From Gyromitra esculenta (taxonomy: Eukaryota > Ascomycota > Pezizomycetes > Pezizales > Discinaceae), in contig JBCAML010000001.1 of NCBI GenBank assembly GCA_038503075.1, positions 496,001-560,000 on the forward strand: a DNA stretch of 64,000 bases, given 5' to 3'. Positions 27,201 to 64,000 of the stretch are shown piece after piece. The first letter of the stretch is position 1. Each line of letters starts with the position of its first letter. The translations under genes and the position numbers were made by a program. The notes below the pieces were generated by a model. The model did not search any database, was not told where the DNA came from, and saw nothing but the letters and a program-made list of their open reading frames with translations.

Positions 27201-27937
27201 TTCTTATCAAACATATCTAAGTCGTGATATTCGGCGGGGATCCTGGCTCTCCATTCTTCCTTTGTGGTTTTCTCCTCTAGAATTCTATCAATCTCGTAGA
27301 GGGACATTGCATAAGCTTGTAGGGACCGTTTTCGAATGAGGGTCCTGAAGCTGGCGGCGTTGATGAAAGAAACGTTAAGCTTAATTGGGGCGGGGATCGA
27401 AGGGGCGGAAACAATAGCGGCATCAGCGGAACAATGGGTGGTGCAGAGTTTAGAATTAAACTCAATGCGCTTGTCGGCAAAGTGGAGGCGAACATCATGG
27501 TAATTCATCCACGGAATTCCTAACACCAAGGGGTAATGGCCCAACTGGGTTACAAAGCACGGGGCTTGTTCTTGATGCTGTTGGATGGATAGATTGAGAT
27601 TTACGATATGTGTGATGGCTCCTGAGGCGACAGGACGGCCATCTATGACTTCTAGTTGTCTGGGGGTTTTAAGAGGGGAGAGAGGTAGAGAATGGTGACT
27701 CGCAAATTCCTTATCGATGAAGGCGAATCCTGAGGCGCCAGTGTCCAATAGTGCGTGTGTTTTAATAATTTTATTGCTATGGGAAATGTTACAAGAAATA
27801 ACGAAATGTTCCCCATCCAATTGATCCTCCACGCACATATCCGACACTGAAAAACCCGAAATGGAAAACGCGGACAAAGGTAAAGAAAAAGGAACCGAAG
27901 CAGGGTCACTGGTCGACTTCGGTAAGACTAGTTTAAA
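24290..27937 (-). pseudogene. Element A pol (protease-RT-RNase H-integrase; chromodomain out of frame)
   Basis: Translation is expected by -1 frameshifting at 27937-27931. The open frame runs to 24512, about 1140 codons. In order: aspartic protease (LLDTGASG), RT with the YLDD box, RNase H, integrase with the HHCC zinc motif and DDE core ([25 protein letters not shown]). After LLKPAIS a small deletion relative to the other copies shifts frame, so the downstream chromodomain sequence (about 24290-24511) is not in frame and has further indels. The product would copy and integrate the element; without the chromodomain, targeting to histone marks would be lost. Confidence 0.88.
27894..27937 (-). 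promoter_or_regulatory. -1 frameshift signal, element A
   Basis: Slippery heptamer TTTAAAC (27937-27931) in gag phase T TTA AAC, followed directly by TAG, then a stem ACCGAAG (27923-27917) / CTTCGGT (27900-27894) with a 16-nt loop. The -1 frame continues into pol. Confidence 0.8.
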
Positions 27938-29250
27938 GCCTCCTCAGAGGCGCTTGGTGGTTCAAGAGCAAAAAACTGGGGAGGTAACGGTGGTGGTGGG
28001 AGAGACGAGGCGGGGGGAGTACGGTTAGCAGGAGGTGCAGTAAGGGCTCCTCTCATTGCTGGTTTTTTGGGGGCGGAAGGACAGTTGGCGTAGGAGTGGT
28101 CGGGGGCGGCACAGAACATACACTTGCCCGTGGAGCGGCGCCATTGTTTCTCTTCTTCCGAAAGCTTTCTTCGTCCGTTGACCATTGTGTACCGTTGGTC
28201 TTGAGGAGGGCGAGAAAGATTGCTAGTACGCCCGAAAGACAGGTCCATAGGGGCTAGTCCTCCTGGGGTAAAGGAGGAAGCAGGGGTGAAGGCGGCGGGG
28301 GCACTGAATTGTCCCATATTATCTCTGGCGTTTCCCCGTTTTTCTGCCTTGCGAGCTCGGATTCGGTTGTCCAGTCGGGTGAGGGTAAGAATCATTTCCG
28401 GGAGATTAGCAGGGGCTATGGGTGCGAACACCATTGCTTCCTTGAGTTCTTCCGACATGCCATGTTCCAGGGCATCCATCTTGGAGTTCTCGTCGAAGTT
28501 TAGTTGACCCATGATCCTTTGAAAATCGGCTAGATAAGCCGAAAAATCACGTTTTCCTTGACGGAGTTGGTGGAGTTCCCGTCGAGCGGTGCCAGTTGGG
28601 TCTGGATCGCCAAAGGCAGTTTCCAGGGCGGCGATAAGTTGCTCTGCGCTGGTCCAGGTGGTGAGGCCCGAGGGGAGAACGGTGTGCCGAACTTGTTCCA
28701 ACGCTGCCCCTTCTAGATGGTTGATGGTGTAGAGGATCATTGTGGTTTTGTTGGCAAAGCGATCCCTGTTGACAGTGAGTTTGGAGTGTAGTTGGAGGAT
28801 GAAGCCAGGGAGCTTGGTTCGAGACCCGTCAAATTTCTCTGGATCAGGCATCCGTTCCGAGCGATGGGAGTTCGTTGAGGGAGGTGGGGTGGCCGTGAGG
28901 TTAGGTGGAGCGGGAGGTGCTTGATTGACGGATCGAGCTTCATTTCGCTCTTGTCGTAACCGGGCGATTAGGCTAGCAGTCTCGTTGATCCGTTCATCTT
29001 GCTTTGCAGCATGGCGGAGGGCATTGTCAGTCTGGATTTGTGCTGTGCCGAGTTTTACCTCGGTTTCTCTTTCGTTCTCTTGGAGGACGTCGATTTGGTC
29101 CTCCAAGGCTTGATAGAGGTCCCTGAGGTGATTATACAACTCAGCGGTGTCTTCTCTCAGTGCTTGGGCGAAGGCTTCTCTGGTAGGGAAGCGTGGGGTG
29201 GCGACAGCGACTCCTTCGGTGGAGGGGCCAGCGGGAGCGGGTGAGCTCAT
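27928..29250 (-). CDS. Element A gag (440 aa)
   Basis: The ATG at 29250 aligns with the MSxPAP starts of elements C and F. An N-terminal coiled-coil-like segment precedes the capsid-like region (EGAALEQVRHTV), and a C-terminal CCHC knuckle is present (CMFCAAPDHSYANC). It is open to the TAG in the frameshift site. The frame also stays open upstream to 29448 without an ATG; that roughly 200-nt leader is longer than in C or F. It would form virus-like particles. Confidence 0.87.
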   Translation of the reverse strand: MSSPAPAGPSTEGVAVATPRFPTREAFAQALREDTAELYNHLRDLYQALEDQIDVLQENERETEVKLGTAQIQTDNALRHAAKQDERINETASLIARLRQERNEARSVNQAPPAPPNLTATPPPSTNSHRSERMPDPEKFDGSRTKLPGFILQLHSKLTVNRDRFANKTTMILYTINHLEGAALEQVRHTVLPSGLTTWTSAEQLIAALETAFGDPDPTGTARRELHQLRQGKRDFSAYLADFQRIMGQLNFDENSKMDALEHGMSEELKEAMVFAPIAPANLPEMILTLTRLDNRIRARKAEKRGNARDNMGQFSAPAAFTPASSFTPGGLAPMDLSFGRTSNLSRPPQDQRYTMVNGRRKLSEEEKQWRRSTGKCMFCAAPDHSYANCPSAPKKPAMRGALTAPPANRTPPASSLPPPPLPPQFFALEPPSASEEALN

Positions 29251-32591: not shown

Positions 32592-33893
32592 ATGGAAGGA
32601 GCCGCTGTCGCCGCCAAACGCTTCCCCACCAGAGAAGCTTTCGCCCAAGCATATCGAGAAGACCCAGCAGAATTATACAACGAGCTCAGAGACCTTAACC
32701 AAGCCCTCGAGGACCAAATTGACGTCCTCCAAGAAAGCGAGCGAGAAAATGAGGTCAAACTCAACACGGCTCGCATTCAAACAGACAACGCCCTCAGACA
32801 CGCTACCGAACAAGACCAGCGTGTCACGGAAGCAGCCAATTTGATCGCCAGGCTACGGCAAGAACGGAACGAGGCTCGCGCCACCACTCAAGCACCCCCC
32901 GCTCCCCCAAATCTTAGTGCCACCCCACCACCATCCACGAACTCCCATCGCTCAGAGCGCATGCCAGATCCCGAGAAATTCGATGGATCTAGAGCTAAGT
33001 TACCTGGTTTCATACTCCAGTTACGCTCCAAACTCACGGTCAATCGGGACCGCTTTGCCAACGAAACCACGATGATCCTCTATACAATCAATCGATTGGA
33101 AGGAGCAGCTTTGGAACAAGTCCGTCACACAGTTCTTCCCTCAGGCCTCACCACCTGGACCAGCGCTGAACAACTAATCACTGCACTGGAAACGGCATTT
33201 GGAGATCCCGACCCCACCGGCACCGCCCGACGAGAATTACACCAGCTTCGTCAAGGCAAACGGGACTTCTCAGCGTACCTGGCAGATTTTCAAAGAATTA
33301 TGGGACAACTTAATTTCGACGAAAACTCGAAAATGGATGCCCTTGAACATGGCATGTCCGAGGAATTAAAAGAAGCCATGGTTTTCGCCCCCGCCGTCCC
33401 CACAAACCTTAATGACACAATTCTCACCCTTACCCGCATGGATAACCGTATCCGAGCCCGTAAGGCAGAAAAACGAGGAAACACCCGCGATACCATGGGA
33501 CAATTCAGTGCCCCCTCTGCCTTCTCCCCTGTCTCCTCCTTTACACCCGGAGGATTAGCACCTATGGACCTATCCTTTGGCCGAACTAGCAATCTCCCTC
33601 GCCCTCCTCAAGACCAAAGGTATACCATCGTTAACGGAAGACGGAAGCTCTCCGAGGAGGAAAAACAGTGGCGCCGCTCCACTGGAAAATGTATGTTCTG
33701 TGCCGCACCCGACCACTCCTACGCCAACTGCCCTTCGGCACCAAAGAAACCAACCATGAGGGGAGCGTCTACAAATCTCGCCAATGCTCCTAATCCCCCC
33801 GCCTCCTCTGCTCGCCAACTTCCCCCTCCTCCGTTGCCTCCCCAGTTTTTTGCTATTGATGCACCAGGCGCCTCGGACGAGGATTTAAACTAG
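32592..33893 (+). CDS. Element D gag (433 aa)
   Basis: Starts MEGAAVAAKRF in a good context (CCACCATGG). N-terminal alpha-helical/coiled-coil segment, a Pro-rich linker, a capsid-like core (LEGAALEQVRHTV, LADFQRIMGQL), a basic/Pro-rich stretch and a C-x2-C-x4-H-x4-C knuckle (CMFCAAPDHSYANC). It is complete to the TAG in the frameshift cassette. Structural protein of the virus-like particle; the knuckle should bind element RNA. Confidence 0.93.
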   Translation: MEGAAVAAKRFPTREAFAQAYREDPAELYNELRDLNQALEDQIDVLQESERENEVKLNTARIQTDNALRHATEQDQRVTEAANLIARLRQERNEARATTQAPPAPPNLSATPPPSTNSHRSERMPDPEKFDGSRAKLPGFILQLRSKLTVNRDRFANETTMILYTINRLEGAALEQVRHTVLPSGLTTWTSAEQLITALETAFGDPDPTGTARRELHQLRQGKRDFSAYLADFQRIMGQLNFDENSKMDALEHGMSEELKEAMVFAPAVPTNLNDTILTLTRMDNRIRARKAEKRGNTRDTMGQFSAPSAFSPVSSFTPGGLAPMDLSFGRTSNLPRPPQDQRYTIVNGRRKLSEEEKQWRRSTGKCMFCAAPDHSYANCPSAPKKPTMRGASTNLANAPNPPASSARQLPPPPLPPQFFAIDAPGASDEDLN

Positions 33894-33927
33894 TTTCACC
33901 GAAGTCGACAAGTGACCCTGCTTTGGT
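33884..33927 (+). promoter_or_regulatory. -1 frameshift signal, element D
   Basis: TTTAAAC (33884-33890), TAG, then stem ACCGAAG (33898-33904) / CTTTGGT (33921-33927), which keeps pairing through one G-U wobble. The loop is 16 nt. Confidence 0.82.
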
Positions 33928-35194
33928 TCCTTTTTATTTACCTTTGTCTGCTTTTTCTATTTCGAGATTTTCAGTATCGGATATGTGCATGGAGGATCAG
34001 TTGGATGGGGAACACTTTGTTATTTCTTGTAACATTTCCCATAGCAATAAAATTATTAAAACCCATGCACTATTGGATACTGGAGCTTCTGGATTCGCTT
34101 TCATTGATAAAGAATTTGCGAGTCACCACTCTTTACCTCTCTCCCCCTTAAAAACCCCTAGACAACTGGAAGTCATAGATGGACGACCTGTTGCCTCAGG
34201 AGCCATCACCCATATAGCGAATCTTACTCTATCCATCCAACAGCATCAAGAGCAAGCCCCGTGTTTCGTAACCCAGCTAGGTCATTATCCCTTGGTGTTA
34301 GGAATTCCGTGGATGAACTATCATGATGTTCGCCTTCATTTTGCCGACAAACGCATTGAGTTTAACTCTAAACTCTGCACCACCCACTGCTCCTCCGACA
34401 CCGCCATCGTCTCCGCCCCTTCAATCCCCGTACCCGCTAAGCTCAATGTTTCTTTTATCAACGCCGCCAGCTTTAGGACCCTTACTCGAAAACGGTCCCT
34501 ACAAGCTTACGCGATGTCACTCTACGAAATTAACAGAATTCTAGAGGAGAAAACCACAAAAGAAGAATGGAGGGCCCGAATCCCCGCCGAATATCACGAC
34601 TTCTTAGATATGTTTGATAAGAAGAAAGCTCAAGGCCTATCCCCACGCCGACCCTATGACCACAAGATACAACTTCAAGACGGGAAGGAAGCACCATTTG
34701 GCCCTCTGTACGGAATGTCTCGAGAAGAGCTGATCGTCTTAAAGAAATACATTGAGGACAATCTCGAGAAAGGGTTTATCCGAGCCAGTTCTTCACCCGC
34801 CGGATCCCCTGTCCTCTTTGTCAAAAAGGCCGACGGCTCCCTCCGGTTATGTGTAGACTACCGGGGTCTTAATGCGATTACAGTCAAGGATCGTTATACC
34901 TCTCCCCTTATCCGTGAGACACTGGACCGATTAGCGAAAGCACAATGGTACACCAAACTCGACCTCCGAGATGGGTACCATCAAATCCGTATTGCTGAAG
35001 GGGATGAATGGAAGACCGCCTTCCGCACTCGTTATGGGCTCTATGAATATCAAGTTATTCCGTTCAGCCTAACTAACGCACCCGGGACGTTTCAACGATT
35101 TGTTAACGACTGCCTGAAGGAATATCTAGACATATTCTGTACCGCGTATCTGGATGATATTCTCATCTATAGCGATACCTTTGAAGAGCATCAG

Positions 35195-35688: not shown

Positions 35689-36971
35689 ATGGAAGGAGCC
35701 GCCGTCGCCGCAAAACGCTTCCCCACTAGAGAAGCTTTCGCCCAAGCCTACCGAGAGGACCCCGCAGAGCTCTACAATGAGCTTAGAGATCTCAACCAAG
35801 CCCTGGAAGACCAAATCGACGTTCTCCAGGAAAGCGAGCGAGAAAATGAGGTCAAACTCAATACCGCCCGCATTCAGACTGACAATGCTCTCCGCCACGC
35901 CGCTGAACAGGACCAACGCGTCACGGAAACAGCTAGCCTAATTGCCCGGTTACGACAAGAACGAAACGAAGCTCGCGTCAGCCTTCAGGCCCCCCCCGCT
36001 CCACCAAACCTCAGCGCCACACCACCTCCAGCGATATCCCACCGTTCAGAACGGATGCCAGATCCCGAGAAATTCGACGGATCCCGATCCAAACTGCCAG
36101 GATTTATCCTACAACTGCGCTCTAAGCTCACGGTCAATCGAGACCGTTTTGCAAATGAAACTACGATGATCCTCTACACCATAAATCGACTAGAAGGAGC
36201 AGCTCTGGAGCAAGTCCGCCACACGGTACTCCCATCCGGCCTCACCACATGGACTAGCGCTGAAGAGCTGATCACCGCACTGGAAACTGCATTCGGAGAT
36301 CCAGACCCCACCGGTACCGCCAGACAAGAATTGCATTAACTCCGCCAAGGCAAAAGAGATGTTTCAATCTACCTGGCTGACTTTCAAAGGATCATGGGAC
36401 AACTCAATTTCGATAAGAACTCGAAGATGGATGCTCTGGAACATTGGATGTCAGAAAAGCTAAAAGAAGCTATGGTTTTTGCCCCCGCCGTCCCCACAAA
36501 CCTCAATGACACAATCCTCACTCTTACCCGAATGGATAATCGCATTCGAGCCCGCAAAGCAGAAAACGGGGAATAACCGGTATACGATGACAATTCAGCC
36601 GCCCCGCCTTCACCCCCGCCTCCTCTTTCACTCCCGGAGGACTAGCCCCTATGGACCTATCCTTCGGCCGTACCAGTAACACCTCTCGCCCTCCCCAGGA
36701 TCAACGATATAAAATGGTAAACGGAAGAAGGAAACTATCGGAAGAAGAAAAACAGTGGCGTCGTTCCACTGGAAAATGCATGTTTTGTGCGGCTCCAGAC
36801 CACTCATACGCCAACTGTCCCTCCGCCCCCAAGAAACCCACGATGAGAGGAGCCCTCACCGCACCACCGGCCCCCCGTACACCCGCCGCCTCCTCACTCC
36901 CACCACCACCTCTTCCTCCTCAGTTTTTTGCGTTAGAATCTGCAGACTCTTCCAACGAGTCTTTAAACTAG
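35689..36971 (+). pseudogene. Element E gag, broken
   Basis: Starts MEGAAVAAKRF like D and is open to 36339, where an in-frame TAA replaces the Gln codon found in the other copies (ELH-Q). The frame then continues with an unusual cluster of substitutions (KRDVSIYLADF, LEHWMSEKLKEA) and shifts again near 36570. The last part (36651-36971), with the CCHC knuckle and the frameshift site, is intact. No full gag can be made from this copy. Confidence 0.88.
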
Positions 36972-37006
36972 TCCAACCAAGGCTGACCAGTGACCCTGCC
37001 TTGGTT
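36962..37006 (+). promoter_or_regulatory. -1 frameshift signal, element E
   Basis: TTTAAAC (36962-36968), TAG, stem AACCAAGG (36975-36982) / CCTTGGTT (36999-37006), 16-nt loop. Confidence 0.82.
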
Positions 37007-40000
37007 CCCATTTCTTTACCTTTGTCGGTTTTTTCTATCTCGGGTTTTTCAGTGTCGGACATGTGTGTGGAGGACCAATTGGATGGGGAACATTTCGTTA
37101 TTTCATGTAACATTTCCCATAACAATACAATTATTAAAACTCATGCACTATTGGACACTGGAGCCTCGGGATTCGCCTTCATAGACAAAGACTTTGCGAG
37201 TCACCATTCCCTACCTCTATCCCCTCTAAAAAATCACCGACAACTAGAAGTGATTGATGATGTACGCAGTTTCACAGGGGACATCACTCACATTGCCAAT
37301 ATTCATCTCTCGATCCAACAACACCAAGAACAAGCCCCCTGTTTCGTTACCCAACTAGGACATTACCCCCTCGTTCTAGGAATTCCATGGATGAACTACC
37401 ATGATGTCCAACTCCACTTCGCCCAAAAACGCATCAAGTTTAATTCTAAACTCTGCACTACCCACTGCGCCCCCGGTTCCACTACTGTTTCCGCCCCCTC
37501 GATTGCAGCACCTCCTAAACTAAATCTATCTTTCATCGGTGCCGCCAGTTTCAGGACCCTCACCCGAAAACGTTCCTCCCAGGCTTACGCCATGTCGCTA
37601 TATGAGATAAACAAGATCATTGACGACAAGACAACCAACGAAGAATGGAAAGCAAGAATCCCTGCGGAATACCACGATTTTTTGGATATGTTTGATAAGC
37701 GTAAGGCTCAAGGACTTCCCCCTCGCCGATCTTATGACCACCGAATACAACTACAGGAAGGAAAGGATGCCCCCTTCGGACCCCTCTATGGAATGTCTCG
37801 AGAAGAACTCATCGTGCTAAAAAAGTACATCGAAGATAACCTTGAAAAAGGATTCATCCGCGCTAGTTCTTCTCCAGCAGGATCCCCGGTGCTCTTCGTG
37901 AAAAAGGCTGATGGATCCTTACGACTATGCGTGGATTACCGTGGCCTCAATGCGATCACTGTCAAAGATCGTTATACCTCACCTCTCATCCGAGAGACGC
38001 TAGATCGTTTAGCCAAGGCCCAATGGTATACCAAACTAGACCTTCGTGACGGATACCACCAAGTACGTATTGCGGAGGGAGATGAATGGAAGACCGCCTT
38101 CCGCACCCGGTATGGTCTTTATGAATACCAAGTTATGCCATTCGGCTTAACTAACGCCCCCGGGACCTTCCAACGTTTTGTAAACGATTGTCTCACTGAA
38201 TATCTGGATATCTTCTGTACTGCTTACCTAGACGATATCCTCATCTACAGTGACACTTTTGCTGAACATCAGATCCACGTTCGCAAGGTCCTTCAAACCC
38301 TTAAAGAGAATGACATTCTGCTGAAACCAGAGAAATGTGAGTTCAAGGTACAAACCACTAAGTACCTAGGCCTCATCCTCACCCCCGACGGCATTAAAAT
38401 GGAAGAAGAGAAACTCAAAGCCGTACGAGAATGGGGAACGCCAAAGAGCGTAAAAGATGTCCAAGCCTTTTTAGGTTTTGCCAACTTCTACCGTCGCTTC
38501 ATCCTCGGATTTTCTAAGCTTGCTGCTCCCCTCACTGCTCTTACTAGTAAAGGTATCGTCTTCGAATGGTCTGTCGAAGCCGATATAGCTTTTGAAAACC
38601 TTAAATACGCCTTCACCACCGCCCCCATCCTCATCCACTTTGATCCAGACAAGAAAATCATCGTGGAAACAGATGCCTCTGACTTTGTATCCGGAGGAGT
38701 GCTCTCTCAATATGATGACGCTGGAGTCTTACACCCAGTCGCTTTTTTCTCGAAAAAACATTCACCTGCTGAATGCAATTACGAGATATATGACAAGGAG
38801 TTACTAGCCATCATCAGAGTATTTGAAGAATGGCGCCCAGAACTCGAAGGCTCTAAACACCCCATCGACGTAATCAGCGACCATAAAAATCTCGAATATT
38901 TTATGAGTACGAAACAGCTGAACCGACGGCAAGCACGATGGGCCGAATATCTTTCCCGCTTCGATTTCGTGATTACCTACCGTCCAGGTAGCCAAGGAGG
39001 AAAGCCAGACGCATTGACCAGAAGATCAGGAGATCTTCCCAAGGAAGGGGATGAACGATTGGCACATCAAAGCCAAGTGGTATTGAAGAAGGAAAACGTA
39101 GATCCTAAGCTAAGTTTGTTATCGGCTTCTTTGTCAAATGAAGCCGCTGAACTGGACGCCTCCCTAGAACAACTCTTCCTAGAGGGATATATTGCTGATC
39201 AATTTCCGGAAAAGATTCTTTTAGCACTAAGGAATAAGGACCAACGATCAAAAGAAATCACCTTAAGCGAATGCAAGGAAAAAAATGGAAGACTCCGATA
39301 TCGAAACGCCATCTATGTCCCTAACTTCGATCCTCTTCGTCTAGAACTCATCCGAAGGCACCATGACAGCCCCGCAGCGGGCCATCCAGGACGAGATAAA
39401 ACCTTCGAACTCCTTGCTAGGAACTTCTACTGGCCCAAAATGAGAGAATCTATCAAACAATATGTGCGTAATTGCCATATCTGTCAGAAAGCGAAGCCAG
39501 TCAACCAGCAGACTCAAGGAGTTCTTCGTCCGTTACCTATTCCAAACCGCCCTTGGCAAGAAATCTCGATGGACTTCGTTACAGGCCTCCCGGAATCAAA
39601 CGGCTATGACGCCATTATGGTGATAGTAGACCGCTTATCGAAAATGCGACATCTTATTCCCTGTAATACTACGATTAATTCACGAGATGTCGCAGATCTT
39701 TACCTTCAGCATGTGTGGAAACTTCATGGCTTACCGACATATGTCACATCCGATCGAGGCACCCAATTCACCGCTCACTTCTGGAAGGAACTCTGTCAAC
39801 GCTTAGGTATCCAAGCTAGGATGTCAACGGCCTTCCATCCTGAAACCGATGGGCAAACCGAACGACTGAACGCCGTTATGGAACAATATTTACGCTCCTA
39901 CGTGAATTACCAACAAGGAGACTGGAGTAGTTGGTTACCGATGGCTGAGTTCTCGGCTAATAACCAGGAATCCGCAAGTACCAAGGTTTCCCCCTTTTTC

Positions 40001-40672
40001 GCTAACTACGGTTATCATCCTCGATTCGATACCTCGGTTATTTCCCCGAATACCACCGCTCAAAGCCTAGACGCGTCTAAGTTCACCATTACTATGCAAG
40101 AGTTATACGACCATCTTAAGACGCAGATTCGAACAGCTCAAGACATTCAGGAAACTGCTACGAACAAACATCGAACTCCAGCTCCAGCTTATCAAGTTAA
40201 AGATCTAGTATTTGTATCCATGAAAAATATCCGAACAGTTCGCAATGCTCGGAAACTCGACTGGAAGTGGATGGGACCTTATGCTGTGAAGAAGATTGTA
40301 TCACCTTTTGCATATGAGATCGACCTTCCCTCCTCAGTCAAGTATCATCCTGTTTTTCATGTTTCGCTCCTAAAACCCGCTGCCAATGATCCTCTCCCAG
40401 GACAAGTGGTACCCCCTCCATCCCCAATCGTTGTTAATGAACAAGAGGAATATTTCATTGAGAAAATCCTCGAACAACGGACTTATCGCGGACAACAACA
40501 ATACCTTGTCGAGTGGACCGGTTATGCTCACCCTACATGGGAACCCGCCAAAGACCTTCAAGATACTGCCGCCCTCGATGTCTTTTTAAATACGACGATT
40601 ATAACTAGTCCCAAGGTTCGCAGGAGCTCACGTTTGAGACGGGGAGCTACTTTCACGGATGAGATCGAGTAA
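36962..40672 (+). CDS. Element E pol polyprotein (about 1236 aa), open
   Basis: A single open frame from the frameshift site to a stop inside the 3' LTR: protease (LLDTGASGFAFID), RT with TAYLDDILIYS, RNase H, integrase zinc finger (HH...CHICQKAK) and DDE core ([27 protein letters not shown]), and a C-terminal chromodomain (EEYFIEKILEQ...WTGYAHPTWEP). Reverse transcribes and integrates the element; the chromodomain is expected to read methylated histones. A local altered stretch after the protease (VIDDVRSFTG) looks like a compensated frameshift. Expression would need frameshifting from a gag that is itself broken. Confidence 0.92.
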   Translation, partial: FKLVQPRLTSDPALVPISLPLSVFSISGFSVSDMCVEDQLDGEHFVISCNISHNNTIIKTHALLDTGASGFAFIDKDFASHHSLPLSPLKNHRQLEVIDDVRSFTGDITHIANIHLSIQQHQEQAPCFVTQLGHYPLVLGIPWMNYHDVQLHFAQKRIKFNSKLCTTHCAPGSTTVSAPSIAAPPKLNLSFIGAASFRTLTRKRSSQAYAMSLYEINKIIDDKTTNEEWKARIPAEYHDFLDMFDKRKAQGLPPRRSYDHRIQLQEGKDAPFGPLYGMSREELIVLKKYIEDNLEKGFIRASSSPAGSPVLFVKKADGSLRLCVDYRGLNAITVKDRYTSPLIRETLDRLAKAQWYTKLDLRDGYHQVRIAEGDEWKTAFRTRYGLYEYQVMPFGLTNAPGTFQRFVNDCLTEYLDIFCTAYLDDILIYSDTFAEHQIHVRKVLQTLKENDILLKPEKCEFKVQTTKYLGLILTPDGIKMEEEKLKAVREWGTPKSVKDVQAFLGFANFYRRFILGFSKLAAPLTALTSKGIVFEWSVEADIAFENLKYAFTTAPILIHFDPDKKIIVETDASDFVSGGVLSQYDDAGVLHPVAFFSKKHSPAECNYEIYDKELLAIIRVFEEWRPELEGSKHPIDVISDHKNLEYFMSTKQLNRRQARWAEYLSRFDFVITYRPGSQGGKPDALTRRSGDLPKEGDERLAHQSQVVLKKENVDPKLSLLSASLSNEAAELDASLEQLFLEGYIADQFPEKILLALRNKDQRSKEITLSECKEKNGRLRYRNAIYVPNFDPLRLELIRRHHDSPAAGHPGRDKTFELLARNFYWPKMRESIKQYVRNCHICQKAKPVNQQTQGVLRPLPIPNRPWQEISMDFVTGLPESNGYDAIMVIVDRLSKMRHLIPCNTTINSRDVADLYLQHVWKLHGLPTYVTSDRGTQFTAHFWKELCQRLGIQARMSTAFHPETDGQTERLNAVMEQYLRSYVNYQQGDWSSWLPMAEFSANNQESASTKVSPFFANYGYHPRFDTSVISPNTTAQSLDASKFTITMQELYDHLKTQIRTAQDIQETATNKHRTPAPAYQVKDLVFVSMKNIRTVRNARKLDWKWMGPYAVKKIVSPFAYEIDLPSSVKYHPVFHVSLLKPAANDPLPGQVVPPPSPIVVNEQEEYFIEKILEQRTYRGQQQYLVEWTGYAHPTWEPAKDLQDTAALDVFLNTTIITSPKVRRSSRLRRGATFTDEIE

Positions 40673-44689: not shown

Positions 44690-44734
44690 TTTAAACTAGT
44701 TCAACCAAGGCTGACCAGTGACCCTGCCTTGGTT
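44690..44734 (+). promoter_or_regulatory. -1 frameshift signal, element C
   Basis: TTTAAAC (44690-44696), TAG, stem AACCAAGG (44703-44710) / CCTTGGTT (44727-44734), 16-nt loop. Confidence 0.82.
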
Positions 44735-47370
44735 CCAATTTCTTTTCCTTTGTCTGCATTTTCAATTTCCGGGTTTTCAGTCGATAGTATAAGCGTGGAG
44801 GATCAATTAGATGGAGAACATTTTGTAGTTTCGTGCAATATCTCCAATAATAATAAAATCATTAAAACACACGCTTTGCTAGACACTGGAGCCTCTGGAT
44901 TTGCATTCATCGATAAGAATTTTGCGAGTCACCACTCTATTCCCCTTATTCCCCTCAAAACACCCCGACAACTTGAAGTAATCGATGGCCGACCAGTAGC
45001 CTCAGGAGACATTACTCACATCGCCAACATCAACTTGTCTATCCAACAACATCAGGAACAGGCCCCCTGCTTCGTCACCCAACTGGGGCATTATCCACTA
45101 GTACTAGGAATCCCTTGGATGAACCACCATGATGTCCACCTTCACTTCGCCAATAAACGCATTGAATTTAACTCTAAATTCTGCACGACCCGTTGTGCCC
45201 CTCATCAAGCTACCGTATCCACACCCTCGATCCCCGCTCCTCCCAGACTAAATTTGTCATTTATTGGCGCTGCCAGCTTCAGGACACTTACTCGAAAACG
45301 CTCCTCCCAAGCCTATACCATGTCCCTTTACGAGATTAATAAAATCTTAGAAGAAAAGACCAGCAAAGAAGAATGGAAAGCAAGGATACCTGCTGAGTAC
45401 CATGAGTTTTTAGATATGTTTGACAAAAGCAAAGCTCAAGGCTTACCTCCACGGCGCTCATATGACCATAAAATACAGCTGATGGAGGGGAAGGACGCAC
45501 CGTTTGGCCCTCTCTATGGGATGTCGCGAGAAGAACTCATTGTCCTCAAAAAATACATTGAAGATAATTTAGAGAAGGGTTTTATTCGCGCTAGTTCTTC
45601 TCCCGCTGGATCTCCCGTCCTCTTCGTAAAGAAAGCTGATGGCTCCTTAAGACTCTGCGTGGATTATCGAGGACTAAATGCGATTACGGTTAAAGACCGA
45701 TATACCTCCCCCCTTATCAGAGAAACACTAGATCAGCTAGCCAAAGCACAATGGTATACCAAGCTAGACCTTCGTGACGGTTATCATCAAGTATGCATCG
45801 CCGAAGGAGATGAGTGGAAGACAGCTTTCCGCACCCGTTATGGTTTATATGAATACCAGGTCATGCCATTTGGCCTGACCAATGCCCCCGGAACCTTTCA
45901 ACGATTCGTTAATGACTGCCTTACCGAATATTTGGATATATTCTGCACAGCTTACCTAGATGATATCCTGATCTACAGTGATACATTTGCGGAACACCAG
46001 ATTCACGTACGAAAAGTACTCCAAACGCTTAAGGACAGCGACATCCTGCTTAAGCCGGAGAAATGCGAGTTCGAAGTACAAACAACCAAGTACTTGGGCC
46101 TTATCCTCACTCCCGACGGCATTAAAATGGACGAAGAAAAACTAAAAGCCGTCCGGGATTGGAATACCCCAAAAAGTGTTAAGGATGTACAAGCCGTCGG
46201 TTTATCCTAGGGTTTTCCAAACTCGCTGCGCCCCTCACCACCCTCACTAGAAAAGGCATCACCTTCGAATGGACTATCCAAGCTGACATAGCCTTCGAAA
46301 ACCTAAAACATGCCTTTACCATTGCCCCCATTCTTATCCACTTTGACCCCGATAAGAAAATCATCGTGGAAACAGATGCTTCCGACTTCGTATCCGGAGG
46401 AGTACTCTCACAATATGATGATACTGGAGTACTCCACCCGGTGGCGTTCTTCTCGAAAAAACATTCACCCGCTGAATGTAATTACGAGATTTACGACAAG
46501 GAACTGTTGGCTATTATCCGAGTATTTGAGGAGTGGCGCCCGGAGCTCGAAGGTTCCAAACACCCTATTGACGTAATCAGCGATCATAAAAACCTCGAGT
46601 ATTTTATGAGCACGAAGCAATTGAATCGACGCCAAGCACGATGGGCGGAGTATCTTTCCCGCTTTGATTTCGTAATCACCTATCGCCCGGGTAGTCAGGG
46701 GGGAAAACCGGATGCATTGACCAGAAGATCAGGAGATCTTCCCAAGGAAGGGGATGAACGGTTGGCACATCAAAGCCAAGTGGTATTGAAGAAGGAAAAT
46801 ATAGACCCTAAGCTAAGTTTGTTGTCGGCTTCTTTGTCAAATGAAGCCGCTGAACTGGACGCCCCCTTAACCAAACTATTCCTAGAAGGATATATCGCTG
46901 ACAAGTTTCCTGAAGAAATACTCGAAGCACTAAGGAATAAAGATCAACAATCAAAAAAGATCACCTTAAGTGAATGTACCGAGAAGAATGGAAGACTATG
47001 TTACCGAGATCGTATCTACGTTCCCGATCTGGATGCCCTCCGCCTGGAAATAATCCGGAGACACCACGATGTACCAGCAGCAGGACACCCTGGCCGTGAT
47101 AAGACCTTCGAACTCCTTGTGAGAGATTATTATTGGCCAAAAATGAGAGAATCGATCAATAGATACGTTCGCAACTGCCATATCTGCCAAAAAGCAAAGC
47201 CAGTTACTCAGCGAACCCAAGGTGTCCTCCGCCCTCTCCCTATCCCGAACCGTCCTTGGCAGGAGATTTCAATGGACTTTGTTACAGGTCTCCCAGAGTC
47301 TGACGGTTACGATGCTATAATGGTCGTGGTCGACCGCTTGTCAAAAATGCGACATTTAATCCTTGCAATA

Positions 47371-47777
47371 TTTCACGGATGGAATGATGGGTTAGGGTTC
47401 GGAGAGTAACGGTTGCAACGGATGATGGTTTCTTTATAATGTCTTTGTTGTTCGGCTGTGTTTCGGTTATGAGTCATGAGAGAAATTGCGGGGTATATAA
47501 GGGACGGATTTTAGACGGCTGTTATGGTTTTCTTCTCTTTCTTTAAGCAACGTTCTTACTTTACTTCTACTGTATTGTTTTAATACTATCTCGATTCTAC
47601 CTCAGAATCCTCGCAGTCGCTGTCACTGTAGAACATCCTCACACTTAACTCGCCTGGAGTTAGACCCCGTAGGACCTGTAGAAAACTTCGTTACTCTTAT
47701 CGTAACGATTCTTGTTTAAGTAGCTCTGCTCACCTTCTGGGATACAGAAGGGCTTAAACGAGGATCGAACCGTGAGA
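47371..47777 (+). repeat. Element F 5' LTR
   Basis: 407 bp. AAGCAACGT at 47545-47553; PBS complement at 47780-47788. Hairpins GATTCT-ACCTC-AGAATC (47593-47609), TAACTC-GCCTG-GAGTTA (47646-47662) and CCTTCTG-GGATA-CAGAAGG (47733-47751). TATATAAG box upstream. Confidence 0.92.
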
Positions 47778-47820
47778 TTACGTTGCTTCCTCATCTACAC
47801 CTCCTACGCCAAAAGCAACA

Positions 47821-49158
47821 ATGAGCTCCCCCGCCCCCGTCACCTCCTCCTCTGAAGGAGCCGCCGTCGTCACACCTCGCTTCCCTACAAAAGAAGCATT
47901 TGCCCAGGCCTATAGGGACGACCCCGTTGAGTTGTATAGACAACTCCGGGAACTCAACCAGGCCCTCGAAGATCAGATCGATGTCCTACAAGAAGGAACG
48001 CAGGAGCTAGAAATAAAGCTCAACACCGCTCAAATCCAAACGAACAATGCCAACCATCACGCTCAACAACAAGACCAACGAGTCAGTGATGCCTCAACCC
48101 TCATTGAACGACTACGCCGTGAACGAAACGAAGCCCGCGCAGCCCTCTCCCTTCCCCCAGCTCCACCAAACCTTACTGCCACTCCTCCACCGCCATCAGC
48201 CACCACCCATCGCTCCGAACGAATGCCGGATCCAGAGAAATTTGATGGATCCAGAGCAAAGCTCCCTGGTTTTATCCTCCAACTTCGCTCGAAACTTGCG
48301 GTCAACCGAGACCGATTCGCTGACGAGAATACCATGATTCTCTACACCATCAACCGCTTGGAAGGGGCAGCCCTGGAGCAAGTTCGACACACAGTCCTCC
48401 CCTCAGGCCTCACAACTTGGACCAACGCTGCCGCCCTCATCACCGCCCTGGAAACCGCCTTTGGTGACCCTGATCCCACCGGTACCGCTCGTCGAGAACT
48501 ACATCAACTCAGACAGGGCAAACGAGACTTTTCTGCCTACCTGGCAGATTTCCAGCGAATCATGGGGCAATTAAACTTTGATGAAAACTCAAAGATGGAT
48601 GCCCTCGAACATGGTATGTCAGAAGAACTAAAGGAAGCCATGGTCTTCGCCGCCGCTACACCCACAACCCTCAACGACATGGTCCTAGTTCTCACCCGAA
48701 TGGACAACCGCATCCGAGCTCGCAAAGCAGAGAAACGGGGAAGCAATCGCGAGAGCATGGGACAGTTCAGCGCCCCTACCAATGCAATGACCCCTTTTGT
48801 CCCTGCTTCGTCGTTCGTACCAGGTGGCCTAGCCCCCATGGATCTCTCTTTCGGACGTACCAGCAACCTTTCTCGCCCCCCTCAGGACCAACGATACACT
48901 ATGGTCAACGGCAGGAGAAAGTTATCAGAAGAAGAGAAACAATGGCGCCGCTCCACGGGCAAGTGCATGTTCTGTGCCGCCCCTGATCACTCCTATGCCA
49001 ACTGCCCTTCCGCCCCAAAGAAACCAACGATGAGAGGGGCTCTCACCGCACCACCCGCTAACCGCACACCTCCGGCCTCCTCTCTACCACCACCACCTCT
49101 TCCACCCCAATTTTTTGCTTTAGAATCTGCAAACGCCTCAAATGAGGCTTTAAACTAG
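47821..49158 (+). CDS. Element F gag (445 aa)
   Basis: Complete. Starts MSSPAPVTSSSEG; helical N-terminus, capsid-like core (EGAALEQVRHTV), CCHC knuckle (CMFCAAPDHSYANC), Pro-rich tail, ending in the frameshift site with TAG. Shares its N-terminal type with elements A and C. Confidence 0.93.
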   Translation: MSSPAPVTSSSEGAAVVTPRFPTKEAFAQAYRDDPVELYRQLRELNQALEDQIDVLQEGTQELEIKLNTAQIQTNNANHHAQQQDQRVSDASTLIERLRRERNEARAALSLPPAPPNLTATPPPPSATTHRSERMPDPEKFDGSRAKLPGFILQLRSKLAVNRDRFADENTMILYTINRLEGAALEQVRHTVLPSGLTTWTNAAALITALETAFGDPDPTGTARRELHQLRQGKRDFSAYLADFQRIMGQLNFDENSKMDALEHGMSEELKEAMVFAAATPTTLNDMVLVLTRMDNRIRARKAEKRGSNRESMGQFSAPTNAMTPFVPASSFVPGGLAPMDLSFGRTSNLSRPPQDQRYTMVNGRRKLSEEEKQWRRSTGKCMFCAAPDHSYANCPSAPKKPTMRGALTAPPANRTPPASSLPPPPLPPQFFALESANASNEALN

Positions 49159-49193
49159 TCCAACCAAGGCTGACCAGTGACCCTGCCTTGGTT
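49149..49193 (+). promoter_or_regulatory. -1 frameshift signal, element F
   Basis: TTTAAAC (49149-49155) in phase GC T TTA AAC TAG, 6-nt spacer including the stop, then stem AACCAAGG (49162-49169) / CCTTGGTT (49186-49193) with a 16-nt loop. Confidence 0.85.
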
Positions 49194-51732
49194 CCAATTT
49201 CTTTTCCTTTGTCTGCATTTTCAATTTCTGGGTTTTCAGTTTCCGGTGTAAGCGTGGAGGATCAGTTGGATGGGGAACATTTTGTAGTTTCGTGCAATAT
49301 TTCCCATAGCAATAAAATCATCAAAACACACGCTTTACTGGACACTGGAGCCTCTGGATTTGCATTCATTGACAAGAATTTTGCGAGTCACCATTCCCTG
49401 CCACTCTCTCCTCTTAAGACACCCCGACAACTTGAGGTCATCGACGGTCGTACTGTCGCCTCAGGAGATATTACTCATATCGCCAATATCAACTTATCCA
49501 TCGACCAACACCAAGAACAAGCCCCCTGTTTCGTAACCCAACTCGGACACTACCCCCTCGTGTTGGGAATACCATGGATGAACCATCATGATGTCCATCT
49601 ACACTTCGCCGATAAACGCATTGAGTTTAACTCTAAACTCTGCACCACCCGTTGCGCTCCCCACCTGCCCGTTATATCCACCCCCTCAATCCCTAATCCT
49701 CCTAGGCTAAACTTATCATTCATTGGTGCTGCCAGTTTCAGGACTCTTACCCGAAAACGTTCCTCCCAAGCCTATGCCATGTCCCTCTATGAAATTAATA
49801 AAATCATAGACAACAAAACTAGCAAGGAAGAATGGAAATCACGTATTCCTGTTAAATATCACGATTTCCTCGACATGTTTGACAAAACCAAAGCACAAGG
49901 CCTACCACCTCGCCGATCTTACGACCATCAGATACAACTCCAAGAAGGAAAAGACGCCCCGTTTGGGCCACTGTACGGAATGTCCCGTGAAGAACTCATT
50001 GTCCTGAAAAAATATATAGAGGACAATTTAGAGAAAGGGTTTATCCGCGCTAGTTCTTCCCCTGCGGGATCCCCCGTCCTCTTTGTTAAAAAAGCTGATG
50101 GCTCTTTACGATTATGTGTCGACTATCGGAGCCTAAATGCCATCACAGTCAAGGACCGATACACCTCTCCTCTCATCCGAGAAACGCTCGATCGGCTAGC
50201 AAAAGCGCAATGGTATACTAAGCTAGACCTTCTTGACGGCTACCACCAAGTCCGCATTGCCAAGGGAGACGAATGGAAGACAGCCTTCCGCACCCGATAC
50301 GGTCTATATGAGTACCAGGTCATGCCATTCGGCCTAACCAACGCCCCCGGCACGTTCCAACGCTTCGTAAACGACTGCCTCACCGAGTATTTGGACATCT
50401 TTTGTACGGCCTATCTGGACGATATCCTTATCTATAGTGATACCTTCGCCGAACATCAGACCCACGTACGAAAAGTTCTCCAAACACTCAAAGACAATGA
50501 CATCCTGTTGAAACCAGAGAAGTGCGAATTTGAAGTGCAAACCACGAAGTATTTGGGTCTTATCACTCACCCCTGATGGCATCAAGATGGACGAGGAAAA
50601 ACTGAAAGCAGTCCGAGAATGGGGAACACCAAGAAGCGTTAAAGACGTCCAAGCCTTCCTAGGTTTCGCCAACTTTTACCGCCGGTTTATCCTAGGATTC
50701 TCCAAGCTTGCCTCACCCCTTACAGCACTCACAAAAAAGGGGGTAACTTTCGAATGGACGGTTGAGGCAGATGTTGCTTTTGAGAACCTCAAATATGCCT
50801 TCACCACCGCCCCTATCCTTATTCACTTCGACCCCGACAAAAAGATCATCGTAGAAACGGACGCCTCCGATTTTGTATCGGGAGGAATCCTATCCCAATA
50901 CGACGATAATGGCGTCTTACATCCAGTAGCCTTCTTCTCGAAGAAACATTCCCCCGCGGAATGCAATTACGAGATTTATGATAAGGAACTGCTGGCAATC
51001 ATCCGAGTCTTCGAGGAATGGCGCCCTGAATTAGAAGGATCTAAACACCCCATCGACGTGATCAGCGATCATAAAAACCTTGAGTATTTTATGAGTACTA
51101 AACAGCTAAATCGCCGTCAAGCACGATGGGCTGAATACCTCTCTCGCTTCGACTTCGTGATTACGTATCGACCAGGTACTCAAGGAGGAAAGCCCGACGC
51201 ACTGACAAGGAGATCAGGAGATCTCCCCAAGGAAGGGGATGAAAGATTGGCGCATCAGAGTAAGTGGTATTAAAAAGGAGAATATTGATCCCAAGATAAG
51301 TTTGTTGTTCTTTGTCAAATGAAGCCGCTGAATTGGACGCCCCCCTTTTTAAACTTTTTCAAGAAGGATATATCACTGATAAGTTCCCGGAAAAGATACT
51401 CGCGGCATTGAAGAATAAAGAACAACAATCCAAGGAAATTACCTTAAGTGGATGCAGTAATAAGAATAATCTATTACGCTACCGAGATTGTCTCTATGTT
51501 CCCAACCTTGACCCTCTCCGACTGGAACTTATCCGAAGACACCATGATACCCCAGCGGCAGGCCATCCAGGACGCGATAAGACCTTTGAACTCCTAGCCC
51601 GGAACTTTTTTTGGTCCAAAATGCGAGAATCAGTCAGCCGGTAAGTACGAAACTGCCATACGTGCCAAAAAGCCAAACCAAACACCCAACGAACTCAAGG
51701 TGTCCTTCGCCCCCTACCAATCCCTAACCGTC

Positions 51733-55100: not shown

Positions 55101-55827
55101 TTTATCAAACATGTCCAGGTACTCGCGATACTCACGGTATTCTTTGTCTCCATTCCTCTTTAGCTGGTTTTGCTATCGATGACTTTATTTATTTCGTATA
55201 GAGACATTGAATAGACCTGAATACCTTTTTTCGAGCGAGTAAGCGGAAACTGGCGGCTCCAATAAAGGCGGCGTTAAGTTTAATTTGGAGGCGATGGCAT
55301 GGCGAGACGATATAGGTTGTTTAAAAGACAGTGGTGGTGCAGAATTTAGAGTTAAATTCAATGCTCTTGTTGGCGAATTGTAGGTGGACATCATGGAGGT
55401 TCATCCATGGGATACCGAAAGACTAGGGTAATGTCCTGGTTTGGTGACGAAGAAGGAGCTTTCTCATTATGCTGTTGAATTGAAAGCTCCAAGTGGCAAA
55501 GGTTGGTGATATCTCCCGAGGCAATTGTTCTGCCGTTAATGACTTCCAATTGGTGAGGGGTTTTGAGGGGATATAATGGTAAGGAATGGTGACGCACAAA
55601 GTTTTCATCAATGAAAGCGAACCCTGAGGCTTCAGTGTCAAGAAGTGCGTGTGTTTTTATGACTTTATTTTGGTGGGAAAGGCTACATGAAACTACAAAA
55701 TGTTCACCATCCAAATTATCCTCCACACACACATCCGACATTGAAAACCCAGAAATAAAAACGCTGACAAAGAAGAAAAAGAAACCAGAGCAGGGACACA
55801 AGGCGACTCTGGTTGAACTAGTTTAAA
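52164..55827 (-). pseudogene. Element G pol, multiply broken
   Basis: Protease (55801-55391), RT/RNase H (55065-53203, with locally scrambled stretches that look like compensating frameshifts, including the YLDD region), integrase (53195-52299) and chromodomain remnant. The chromodomain frame has TGA at 52301-52299 where the sister copies have Trp (YLVE-W-TGYA). It continues open after that to 52164. Expected start is the frameshift site at 55827. Confidence 0.85.
55783..55827 (-). promoter_or_regulatory. -1 frameshift signal, element G
   Basis: TTTAAAC (55827-55821), TAG, stem AACCAGAG (55814-55807) / CTCTGGTT (55790-55783), 16-nt loop. The stem differs at two paired positions from that of C, E and F, with both sides changed. 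Confidence 0.82.
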
Positions 55828-61290: not shown

Positions 61291-61334
61291 TTTAAACTAG
61301 TTCCACCGAAGTCGATCAGTGACCCTGCTTCGGT
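61291..61334 (+). promoter_or_regulatory. -1 frameshift signal, element B
   Basis: TTTAAAC (61291-61297), TAG, stem ACCGAAG (61305-61311) / CTTCGGT (61328-61334), 16-nt loop. Confidence 0.83.
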
Positions 61335-64000
61335 TCCTTTTTCCTTACCTTTGTCTGCGTTTTCTATCTCGGGGTTTTCAGTATCGGATATCTGCATGGA
61401 GGATCAGCTAGATGGGGAACACTTCGTTATTTCTTGTAACATTTCCCATAGCAATAAAATTATTAAAACCCATGCACTATTGGACACTGGAGCCTCTGGA
61501 TTCGCTTTCATTGATAAGGAATTTGCGAGTCACCACTCCTTACCTCTCTCCCCCCTAAAAAACCCTAGACAACTGGAAGTCATAGATGGACGACCTGTTG
61601 CCTCAGGAGCCATCACACATATAGCCAACCTCAATCTATCCATCCAACAGCACCAAGAACAAGCCCCGTGTTTTGTAACCCAGCTAGGTCATTACCCCTT
61701 GGTGTTAGGAATTCCGTGGATGAACTATCATGATGTTCGCCTCCATTTCGCCGACAAACGCATTGAGTTTAACTCTAAACTCTGCACCACCCACTGTTCC
61801 TCCGACACCGCTATCGTCTCCGCCCCCTCAATCCCGGCACCAGCTAAGCTCAACGTGTCTTTTATCAATGCCGCCAGCTTTAGGACCCTTACTCGAAGAC
61901 GATCCCTACAAGCTTATGCGATGTCACTCTACGAAATTAACAGAATTCTAGAGGAGAAGACCACAAAAGAAGAATGGAGAGCCAGAATCCCTACCGAATA
62001 CCACGACTTCTTGGATATGTTTGATAAGAAGAAAGCTCAAGGTCTATCTCCACGCCGACCCTATGACCATAAAATACAACTTCAAGACGGGAAAGAAGCA
62101 CCATTTGGCCCTCTGTACCGAATGTCTCGGGAAGAGCTCATCGTCTTAAAAAAGTATATTGAGGATAATCTTGAGAAAGGATTTATCCGAGCCAGCTCTT
62201 CACCCGCCGGATCCCCTGTCCTCTTCGTCAAAAAGGCCGACGGTTCCCTCCGGTTATGTGTAGATTACCGTGGTCTTAATGCGATTACAGTCAAGGATCG
62301 TTACACCTCTCCCCTTATCCGTGAAACACTTGACCGATTAGCGAAAGCGCAATGGTACACCAAACTCGATCTCCGAGATGGCTACCATCAAATCCGTATT
62401 GCTAAAGGGGATGAGTGGAAGACCGCCTTCCGCACCCGTTATGGGCTCTATGAGTACCAAGTTATGCCGTTCGGCCTAACTAATGCACCTGGGACGTTTC
62501 AACGATTTGTCAACGACTGCCTGAAAGAATATCTAGATATATTCTGCACCGCGTATCTGGATGACATTCTCATCTATAGCGATACCTTCGCAGAGCATCA
62601 GATTCATGTCCGCAAGGTCCTCCAAACCCTCCAAGATAACGATATCCTGTTAAAACCGGAGAAATGCGAATTTGAGGTACAGACTACTAAGTACCTTGGT
62701 CTTATTCTCACCCCCAACGGTATCAAAATGGACGAGGAGAAACTGAAAGCCGTCCGAGAATGGGGGACACCAAAGAGTGTAAAGGATGTCCAAGCATTTC
62801 TAGGTTTTGCCAATTTTTACCGTCGATTCATCCTAGGATTCTCCAAACTCGCTGCCCCACTCACCGCCCTCACAAAAAAAAGCATTGTCTTCGAATGGAC
62901 TGTTGAAGCTGATATAGCCTTCGAAAACCTCAAATATGCCTTCACCACTGCCCCCATCCTCATCCACTTCGATCCAGACAAGAAGATTATTGTGGAAACA
63001 GACGCCTCCGATTTCGTATCCGGAGGAGTACTCTCCCAATACGATGATAACGGTGTCCTACACCCGGTAGCCTTCTTCTCGAAGAAACATTCCCCGGCGG
63101 AATGCAACTATGAGATTTACGACAAAGAGCTATTGGCCATCATCCGTGTTTTCGAAGAATGGCGCCCAGAGCTTGAGGGATCAAAGCACCCGATCGACGT
63201 GATTAGTGATCACAAAAATCTTGAATACTTCATGAGCACTAAACAACTCAATCGACGTCAAGCTAGATGGGCTGAATACCTATCCCGTTTTGACTTTGTA
63301 ATCACGTACCGACCAGGGAACCAAGGAGGAAAACCCGATGCACTCACTAGAAGATCAGGAGATCTTCCCAAGGAAGGGGATGAAAGACTGGCACACCAGA
63401 GCCAAATAGTGTTGAAGAAAGAGAACATTAATCCCAAGCTAAGTTTGTTGTTGGCTTCTTTGTCAAATGAAGCCGCTGAACTGGATGCACCCCTAGAGAA
63501 ACTCTTTCTAGAAGGATATACCGCTGACAAGTTCCCTGAGAAAATACTTCTAGCATTGAAGAATAAAGAGCAACAGTCAAAGGAAATCACCCTAAGTGAG
63601 TGTACCAATGAGAACAATAAGTTATGCTATCGGGGAAGTCTTTATGTACCAGACTTCGACCCCCTTCGCTTGGAACTTATCAAAAGACATCACGACAGGA
63701 CATTCGGGACGAGATAAAACCTTCGAACTTATAAGTAGAAGGTTTTACTGGCCAAAGATGAGGGAAACAATTAGTCGTTATGTACGCAATTGCCACATCT
63801 GCCAGAAGGCTGCTCGGTCACCCAACGTACGCAAGGTGTTCTCCGTCCTCTACCCATCCCTAATCGTCCATGGCAGGAAGTGTCTATGGATTTTGTTACA
63901 GGCCTCCCGGAGTCGAACGGTTATGACGCTATTATGGTAGTAGTAGATCGCCTATCGAAGATGCGACACCTTATCCCGTGCAATACTACTGTTAATTCAC
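61291..64000 (+). pseudogene. Element B pol, frameshifted and cut by the window end
   Basis: Open from the frameshift site to 63717: protease, RT (YLDD), RNase H, start of integrase. A deletion of about 11 nt near 63697 (in the HH of the zinc finger, relative to D) shifts the frame. Integrase sequence continues out of frame to the window edge with a further small change near 63811. The remainder lies outside the window. Confidence 0.9.

Follow-up and report, generated by a model that had tools for sequence, protein, structure and literature searches.

A candidate pseudoknot-stimulated −1 frameshift cassette at the gag-pol junctions of a chromodomain Ty3/gypsy retrotransposon from Gyromitra esculenta

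How is pol translated from a retrotransposon in which gag closes with a stop codon and pol continues in another frame? This question is raised by a stretch of 64,000 nucleotides from Gyromitra esculenta (contig JBCAML010000001.1, positions 496,001 to 560,000; hereafter the window), in which a gag-pol junction of this kind recurs at 27937(-), 33884, 36962, 44690, 49149, 55827(-) and 61291. All seven sites, listed in a sequence-only reading of the window, proved to be real junctions, and at each of them gag ends, as that reading had claimed, with T TTA AAC TAG. The copy with its junction at 49149 is referred to below as the named copy. Positions are numbered from the first T of the heptamer (+1); alignment column numbers omit +48 to +50, which are absent in one subfamily, so that 3 must be added to columns beyond +47 to obtain the position in the named copy.

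The retrotransposon, its copies and its reading frames

The retrotransposon is a multi-copy chromodomain Ty3/gypsy element (chromovirus), since the frame at 36713–40672 carries Pfam matches to a protease, a reverse transcriptase, an RNase H, an integrase and a chromodomain, in the order RVP_2, RVT_1, RT_RNaseH, H2C2, rve, SH3_Tf2-1, Chromo. In the named copy, the gag ORF (47776..49158, + strand) matched Retrotrans_gag and DUF4939, and the pol frame (49146..50576, + strand) matched RVP_2 and RVT_1, with the protease preceding the reverse transcriptase. Among the matches listed, the named proteins matching the pol protein came from Morchella and Podosphaera; with those matching a nearby KH-domain gene (see below), they point to a filamentous ascomycete as the probable host. 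A protein from Morchella sextelata (P0011) was 53% identical to the pol frame of the named copy over its full length, and its N-terminal stretch was strikingly similar to that of this frame (LSAFSISGFSV, followed by VEDKLDGDHF). The scan of viral contigs with the pol protein yielded no relative, and a tRNA scan of the window was empty.

All the DNA compared came from one genome of 47.1 Mb in 23 contigs. The pattern TTTAAACTAG occurred seven times in the window, exactly at the seven junctions (0.20 occurrences expected from shuffles), and at 588 places genome-wide, versus 169 for a reversed control pattern. From the first 100 of these 588 places we fetched the 93 lying outside the window, on contigs 1 to 3; 81 of them corresponded to the same junction and 12 were chance occurrences. 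The 81 pattern-picked junctions, together with the seven of the window, make up the set of 88 copies used below. A second set of 60 loci, for which the pattern was not used, consisted of the best 30 of each search with two window junctions. Altogether, 148 junction sequences were fetched from 139 distinct places (nine were fetched twice), and 134 had distinct 400-mers. Identical 400-mers around the junction were found at different places in two trios (L005/L006/L007 and L008/L009/L010), a finding that points to recent transposition. Among the matches listed, the TTTAAACTAG places on contigs 1 and 2 were densely clustered (for example, 6 within 22 kb, 7 within 33 kb and 8 within 41 kb) and separated by long, sparsely populated stretches, as if the element inserted into itself or into fixed regions.

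At these junctions, a heptamer of the X XXY YYZ type stands in the zero frame and the downstream ORF is in the −1 frame. The earlier claim that pol is open in the −1 frame held at the junctions, but not for the whole of the copy at 55827(-), in which the frame is broken soon after the junction. The gag and pol frames overlap by as little as 13 nt in the named copy and by 16 nt at 27928–27943. The slippery heptamer (49149..49155, + strand), read as T TTA AAC in the gag frame and as TTT AAA C in the pol frame, was present in 148/148 fetched junctions, and none of its seven columns showed a change in the 134 copies. It is directly followed by the gag stop codon TAG (49156..49158, + strand; from the ORF list). 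In the 60 similarity-picked loci, which were not selected by TAG, this codon was TAG in 58 and TAA in two.

It has to be considered whether pol might instead be expressed by splicing, reinitiation or readthrough of the stop codon, in which case the heptamer would be a relic. We regard this explanation as highly improbable, given that TTTAAAC was kept in 60/60 of the similarity-picked loci, which were not selected by the heptamer, and that readthrough would stay in the gag frame, where the next stop after the TAG lay within 333 nt in 84 of the 88 copies. The pol frame was open over its first 345 nt in 70 of these copies and the third frame in none (0/88); gag was open in 76 over the 350 nt considered upstream of the junction, and gag and pol were both open in 63. 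Furthermore, a pol-frame stop was found no more than 15 nt 5' of the heptamer in 32 of the 88 copies, leaving little room for another shift site.

Stem S1 and the inserted rod

The sequence-only reading had also described a stem beginning about 6 nt after the heptamer and closing a 16-nt loop, with changes between copies that preserve the pairing, and had taken it for a selected RNA structure. Arms, spacer and loop were found as described at all seven sites, and the tally of stem types (three, two, one and one copies) was correct, although the copies were lettered A to G in an order that differs from that of the listed sites. The arms of this stem, hereafter S1, are AACCAAGG/CCTTGGTT at 36962, 44690 and 49149 (+ strand), ACCGAAG/CTTCGGT at 27937 (- strand) and 61291 (+ strand), ACCGAAG/CTTTGGT, with a G-U wobble, at 33884 (+ strand), and AACCAGAG/CTCTGGTT at 55827 (- strand). 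Further forms, such as AACCTGAG/CTCAGGTT and AACCGGAGT/GCTCCGGTT, were found elsewhere in the genome, together with G-U intermediates. With one additional inner pair (C-G, U-A or U-G), S1 comprises 9 bp and a 14-nt loop; in the named copy, stem and loop occupy 49162..49193 (+ strand), with 49162–49170 pairing with 49185–49193. The pair 23:36, once counted in S1, was unpaired and was dropped.

The covariation check in more copies set by the same reading was carried out by parsimony on the 88 copies, with a tree inferred from the flanks outside the cassette and with controls in which the 3' partner was slid by 1 to 15 columns either way. S1 had 16 compensatory changes, versus a maximum of 2 and a mean of 0.4 for the slid pairings, and 97.1% of the cells of its nine pairs were paired. 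The claim of a selected RNA structure at the gag-pol junction is therefore supported. Event counts are inflated by recombination among copies. Since the copies may recombine, the changes were recounted on a conservative tree for which the cassette region was used. Such a tree absorbs recombination and limits, but does not remove, this inflation; S1 retained six compensatory changes, versus a maximum of 2 and a mean of 0.23 for the slid pairings. In a separate alignment of 30 sequences (the seven window copies and 23 loci chosen by eye), two-sided changes were observed in three of the nine pairs. S1 is thus a covarying structure situated 6 nt after the heptamer, as a downstream stimulatory structure would be. 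A screen of all column pairs for covariation, without a pairing rule, revealed none beyond the tree-simulated null, the best value (E = 0.25) being that of the S1 pair 20:39.

High-ranking pairs of this screen, none of them significant, fell on one antidiagonal and at third codon positions, and pointed to a longer structure. This structure was absent from the sequence-only reading, as were the pseudoknot helix S2 and the hairpin 5' of the heptamer described below. Within the beginning of pol, a long imperfect hairpin (49200..49378 in the named copy, + strand) emerged both when the seven window copies were folded singly and when 134 copies were folded with RNAalifold. This inserted rod (stem 3), about 180 nt long and with 55 pairs, begins 3 to 6 nt past S1 and lies between the 3' strand of S1 and that of S2. 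A first consensus structure, obtained without RIBOSUM, was rejected, its 19 pairs beyond S1 having no compensatory change versus up to 3 when slid; the RIBOSUM-scored structure that replaced it was then tested against nulls and with alignment tools.

In the 88 copies, the rod had 55 compensatory changes over its 55 pairs (slid pairings: maximum 9, mean 3.3), with 92.4% of its cells paired (slid maximum 52.4%), and the conservative tree left 33 changes versus a maximum of 6. In the 134 copies, 63 compensatory changes were counted for 58 pairs, of which three lie beyond the rod, versus 2 to 8 for slid pairings, including the codon-preserving slides of 3, 6, 9 and 12. Since the structure had been chosen by covariation from a set including the same copies, we also simulated 100 alignments on the tree, each column being given as many changes as had been observed in it, and re-folded each of them. 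The energy from RNAalifold was −80.9 for the observed alignment versus a mean of −38.1 and a minimum of −53.9 for these nulls, and the 63 observed changes compare with a mean of 3.8 and a maximum of 9. Control windows gave 7, 2 and 12 compensatory changes, the last overlapping the 3' arm of the rod. In the alignment of 30 sequences, 19 of the 46 predicted pairs had a compensatory change; for S1, S2 and the rod taken together there were 118 two-sided cells, versus 43.4 after shuffling (0/500 shuffles reached this value) and 3 to 19 for slid pairings, and 18 pairs with a two-sided change, versus 14.0 (2/500). The number of further pair types was not raised in these 30 sequences (46 versus 49.2, with 493/500 shuffles at least as high). 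The folding energy of the rod was moderately below that of controls in the seven copies (z from −1.5 to −3.9 with codon-usage resampling and from −1.4 to −4.5 with codon shuffling), and other windows folded about as strongly in the three copies scanned; folding energy alone is the weaker argument.

The rod region encodes the N-terminus of pol and the protease, which are conserved in relatives such as the Morchella sextelata protein, and protein constraint where gag ends and pol begins might be proposed to explain the conservation, with the pairings as by-products of the codons. There is very little to recommend this explanation, because many compensatory changes are at third codon positions, on both strands, because the slides that preserve codons recover so few of the 63 changes, and because the bases of S2 are fixed while the amino acids change (see below).

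Along the 88 pattern-picked copies, the drop in the number of third-position changes was deepest at +3 to +45 (about 4), with values of about 5 to 15 in the rod and 12 to 23 beyond +243. A third-position profile over 3 kb in the 60 similarity-picked loci stood at about 9 changes per codon for the greater part of gag and fell to 1.1–3.1 in +3 to +225; we do not lean on it, because the loci were picked by similarity to part of the region, and its gag half, in which the frame was lost through indels, was left unused. Within the rod, the third positions at alignment columns +105, +108, +162, +165 and +174 had 0 to 2 changes and are mostly unpaired in the model, columns +162 to +165 lying within an A-rich stretch. 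These near-invariant silent sites possibly reflect tertiary contacts.

Helix S2, the proposed mechanism and the upstream hairpin

The sequence-only reading had called for a search for a pseudoknot partner of the S1 loop, and a candidate, GUCAC, was found 3' of the rod. When the loop was compared with +46 to +347, only one of 2,970 windows of 5 bp was fully paired in at least 90% of the 88 copies, namely GUGAC/GUCAC (95.5%). In the named copy, the 5' strand GUGAC is at 49177..49181 and the 3' strand, (G)xGUCAC, at 49385..49391 (both + strand). Another pairing, between the loop and a GGGUU stretch about 45 nt downstream, was rejected: it was not kept in all window copies and its window pairing was below 90%. 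The pairs of S2 were formed in 98.3% of cells and show no covariation, because the bases hardly vary. Over the 88 copies, no change was found at the wobble columns +30 and +33 of the 5' strand and 2, 0 and 1 changes were found at the third positions +234, +237 and +240 of the 3' strand, whereas the comparison third positions from +243 to +345 had a minimum of 5 and a median of 18. Codon +28–30 is AGT in 64 copies, TGT in 21 and CGT in 3 (88/88), and codon 235–237 is AGT in 59 and CGT in 26 (85/88); the amino acids therefore vary while the GU stays, and the constraint at the S2 strands, as judged from these codons, is at the nucleotide level and not at that of the protein. Codon 232–234 is GCG in 55 copies and GTG in 28 (83/88); GCG accounts for 10% of the 208 alanine codons in three window pol frames, and C35 of the loop can pair with the G of this codon. 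A 5-bp match is short and its complementarity alone could be due to chance; S2 is thus put forward as a candidate helix on the combined grounds of conservation, complementarity and position.

The whole cassette, from the heptamer to the 3' strand of S2, was also recognized by sequence and pairing in the other window copies, at 27695..27937 (- strand), 33884..34126 (+ strand, upstream hairpin with 4/5 pairs), 36962..37204 (+ strand), 44690..44932 (+ strand, upstream hairpin with 3/5 pairs), 55589..55827 (- strand) and 61291..61533 (+ strand). In the copy at 55827(-), the one with the broken pol frame, the loop pentamer has a one-base mismatch.

We consider it likely that this cassette is a −1 programmed ribosomal frameshift element of the chromodomain Ty3/gypsy retrotransposon, stimulated by an H-type pseudoknot. 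Most ribosomes would stop at the UAG directly after U UUA AAC, with release of Gag, and a minority would slip back by one base, from U UUA AAC to UUU AAA C (tandem slippage), and continue into pol to give Gag-Pol. Slippage would be promoted by the pseudoknot starting 6 nt past the heptamer, made up of S1 (9 bp) and S2 (GUGAC/GUCAC); the 55-bp rod, lying between the 3' strand of S1 and that of S2, would bring the distant strands of S2 together. The sequences show how the frames are arranged and that the heptamer is conserved, and they reveal S1, the rod and a nucleotide constraint on both S2 strands. We infer that S2 would form in the cell, that the rod would play a role in frameshifting and not in some other RNA step alone, that the upstream hairpin would modulate frameshifting and that frameshifting itself would occur.

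A simpler arrangement would be a −1 site stimulated by a hairpin, with only the heptamer and S1 involved and with the rod and GUCAC serving another purpose, for instance dimerisation, packaging of the genome or reverse transcription. Passages of PMC7618472 describe stem-loop stimulators, and by this analogy S1 and the heptamer could suffice; S2 lacks covariation, parts of the rod are distant from the site, and the rod could act in packaging or dimerisation. We nevertheless find this arrangement unlikely, since the one conserved complement of the loop in the tested windows lies at the place required for a pseudoknot, both S2 strands are constrained at the nucleotide level, and the rod begins only a few nucleotides after S1.

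The pseudoknot may be accompanied by a hairpin directly 5' of the heptamer, GCCTC-AAAT-GAGGC in the named copy (49135..49148, + strand), which has 5/5 pairs in 78 of the 88 copies and takes the form GACTC/GAGTC, with a 4- or 7-nt loop, in other copies. The pair involving 3' position −2 alternates between A-U and C-G, with seven compensatory changes, or three on the conservative tree. When the 5' arm was moved by 3 nt, 5/5 pairs were still formed in 55% or 34% of the copies, because the forms with 4- and 7-nt loops differ by 3. Given just two main states and the likelihood of recombination, we consider a hairpin abutting the 5' side of the heptamer to be probable rather than proven. Nine of the 10 copies without the full hairpin keep at least 7/9 S1 pairs and both S2 pentamers. 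Four of the 88 copies (44690 in the window, L071, L079 and L108) have only 3/5 pairs of the upstream hairpin and retain S1 (7 to 9 of 9 pairs) and both S2 pentamers; they constitute a natural test of whether this hairpin matters. With the heptamer in the decoding sites, the upstream hairpin would scarcely be able to stay folded, and it may slow or insulate.

Known frameshift systems and other features of the window

No description of this element, or of such a pseudoknot in a Ty3/gypsy element, was found among the titles and abstracts listed in searches of the open-licence literature, and no Rfam family matched the window at the gathering score. Passages of PMC8168617 describe the SARS-CoV and SARS-CoV-2 site as U_UUA_AAC followed by a three-stemmed pseudoknot, whose Stem 1 has 9 bp and which includes a Stem 3; an attenuator loop is proposed on the 5' side. 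Table 1 of PMC3835772 gives a spacer of 5 for this site. The cassette described here shares with it the heptamer U UUA AAC, a 9-bp S1, a third stem and a probable 5' hairpin. However, the inserted stem is much longer here (about 180 nt, 55 bp), S2 has only 5–6 bp, the loop strand before S2 is 6 nt long, the upstream hairpin adjoins the heptamer, a zero-frame stop directly follows the heptamer, and the host element is an LTR retrotransposon rather than a nidovirus. Its spacer and long insert fit the UUUAAAC pseudoknots of the same table, in which spacers range from 3 to 7 and HCoV-229E has an L2 loop of 164 nt. The resemblance to coronaviruses is one of layout (heptamer, spacer, S1, inserted stem, S2), which we would read as convergence, and no homology is claimed. 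The chances seem to us evenly balanced that a fungal LTR retrotransposon has independently evolved a three-stem pseudoknot of the coronavirus type, with the same heptamer, a 55-bp rod over the start of the protease and, immediately 5' of the heptamer, a hairpin. A ribosome entering pol must unfold the rod, so the frameshift rate may be coupled to the fate of the RNA as mRNA or as genome (packaging or dimerisation).

The combination of UUUAAAC with a very long insert also recalls the "elaborated" pseudoknot of HCoV-229E (164 nt; PMC3835772, Table 1), but the latter pairs through apical loops, as kissing stem-loops (according to passages of PMC5009743), whereas the proposed partner here is the strand that immediately follows a closed rod on its 3' side. 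Rous sarcoma virus has, as is proposed for our element, a long-looped pseudoknot at the gag-pol junction of a reverse-transcribing element, with a stem 3 that is said to matter (passages of PMC5009743), but its heptamer is AAATTTA, with a spacer of 2, an S1 of 13 and an L3 of 52 nt (PMC3835772, Table 1). Saccharomyces Ty3 belongs to the same Ty3/gypsy superfamily and has a gag-pol frameshift, as predicted here; it shifts by +1 at GCGAGUU, where a context sequence is postulated to work through its primary sequence (passages of PMC11381356). The junction studied here is not of this +1 type, pol being in the −1 frame. In this respect it resembles many animal LTR elements, which combine a −1 pol frame with classical tandem shift sites (a 2003 survey cited in PMC5009743), and the Ty3-derived gene PEG10, for which passages of PMC5009743 mention a pseudoknot stimulator. 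For fungal LTR elements, the same passages report a less skewed ratio of +1 to −1 and give no structures.

Many diverged copies of one junction in one genome amount to a natural mutational scan, in which covariation suffices for a complete frameshift RNA to be read from sequence. Should the pseudoknot prove real, a fungal transposon would offer a convergent counterpart to the coronavirus element, workable in simple reporters, and the roles of the inserted third stem and of the abutting 5' hairpin would become testable.

The window also contains a non-LTR (LINE-like) retrotransposon at 20916–23036 (+ strand), perhaps extending over 19306–24029, with endonuclease and reverse transcriptase domains; it is preceded by a 537-aa ORF without a Pfam match, in a C-rich stretch (GC skew −0.42, 20–22 kb). 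A DNA topoisomerase gene, probably with introns, was found in pieces at 16921–19137 (+ strand; Toprim, Topoisom_bac). A LIM-domain ORF (10382–11008) and a KH-domain ORF (1641–2768) are likely to be host genes. Among the 120 matches listed for the KH-domain gene, the named proteins came from Glarea, Aureobasidium, Pyrenula, Penicilliopsis and Bacidia, all of which, like Morchella and Podosphaera, belong to the Pezizomycotina.
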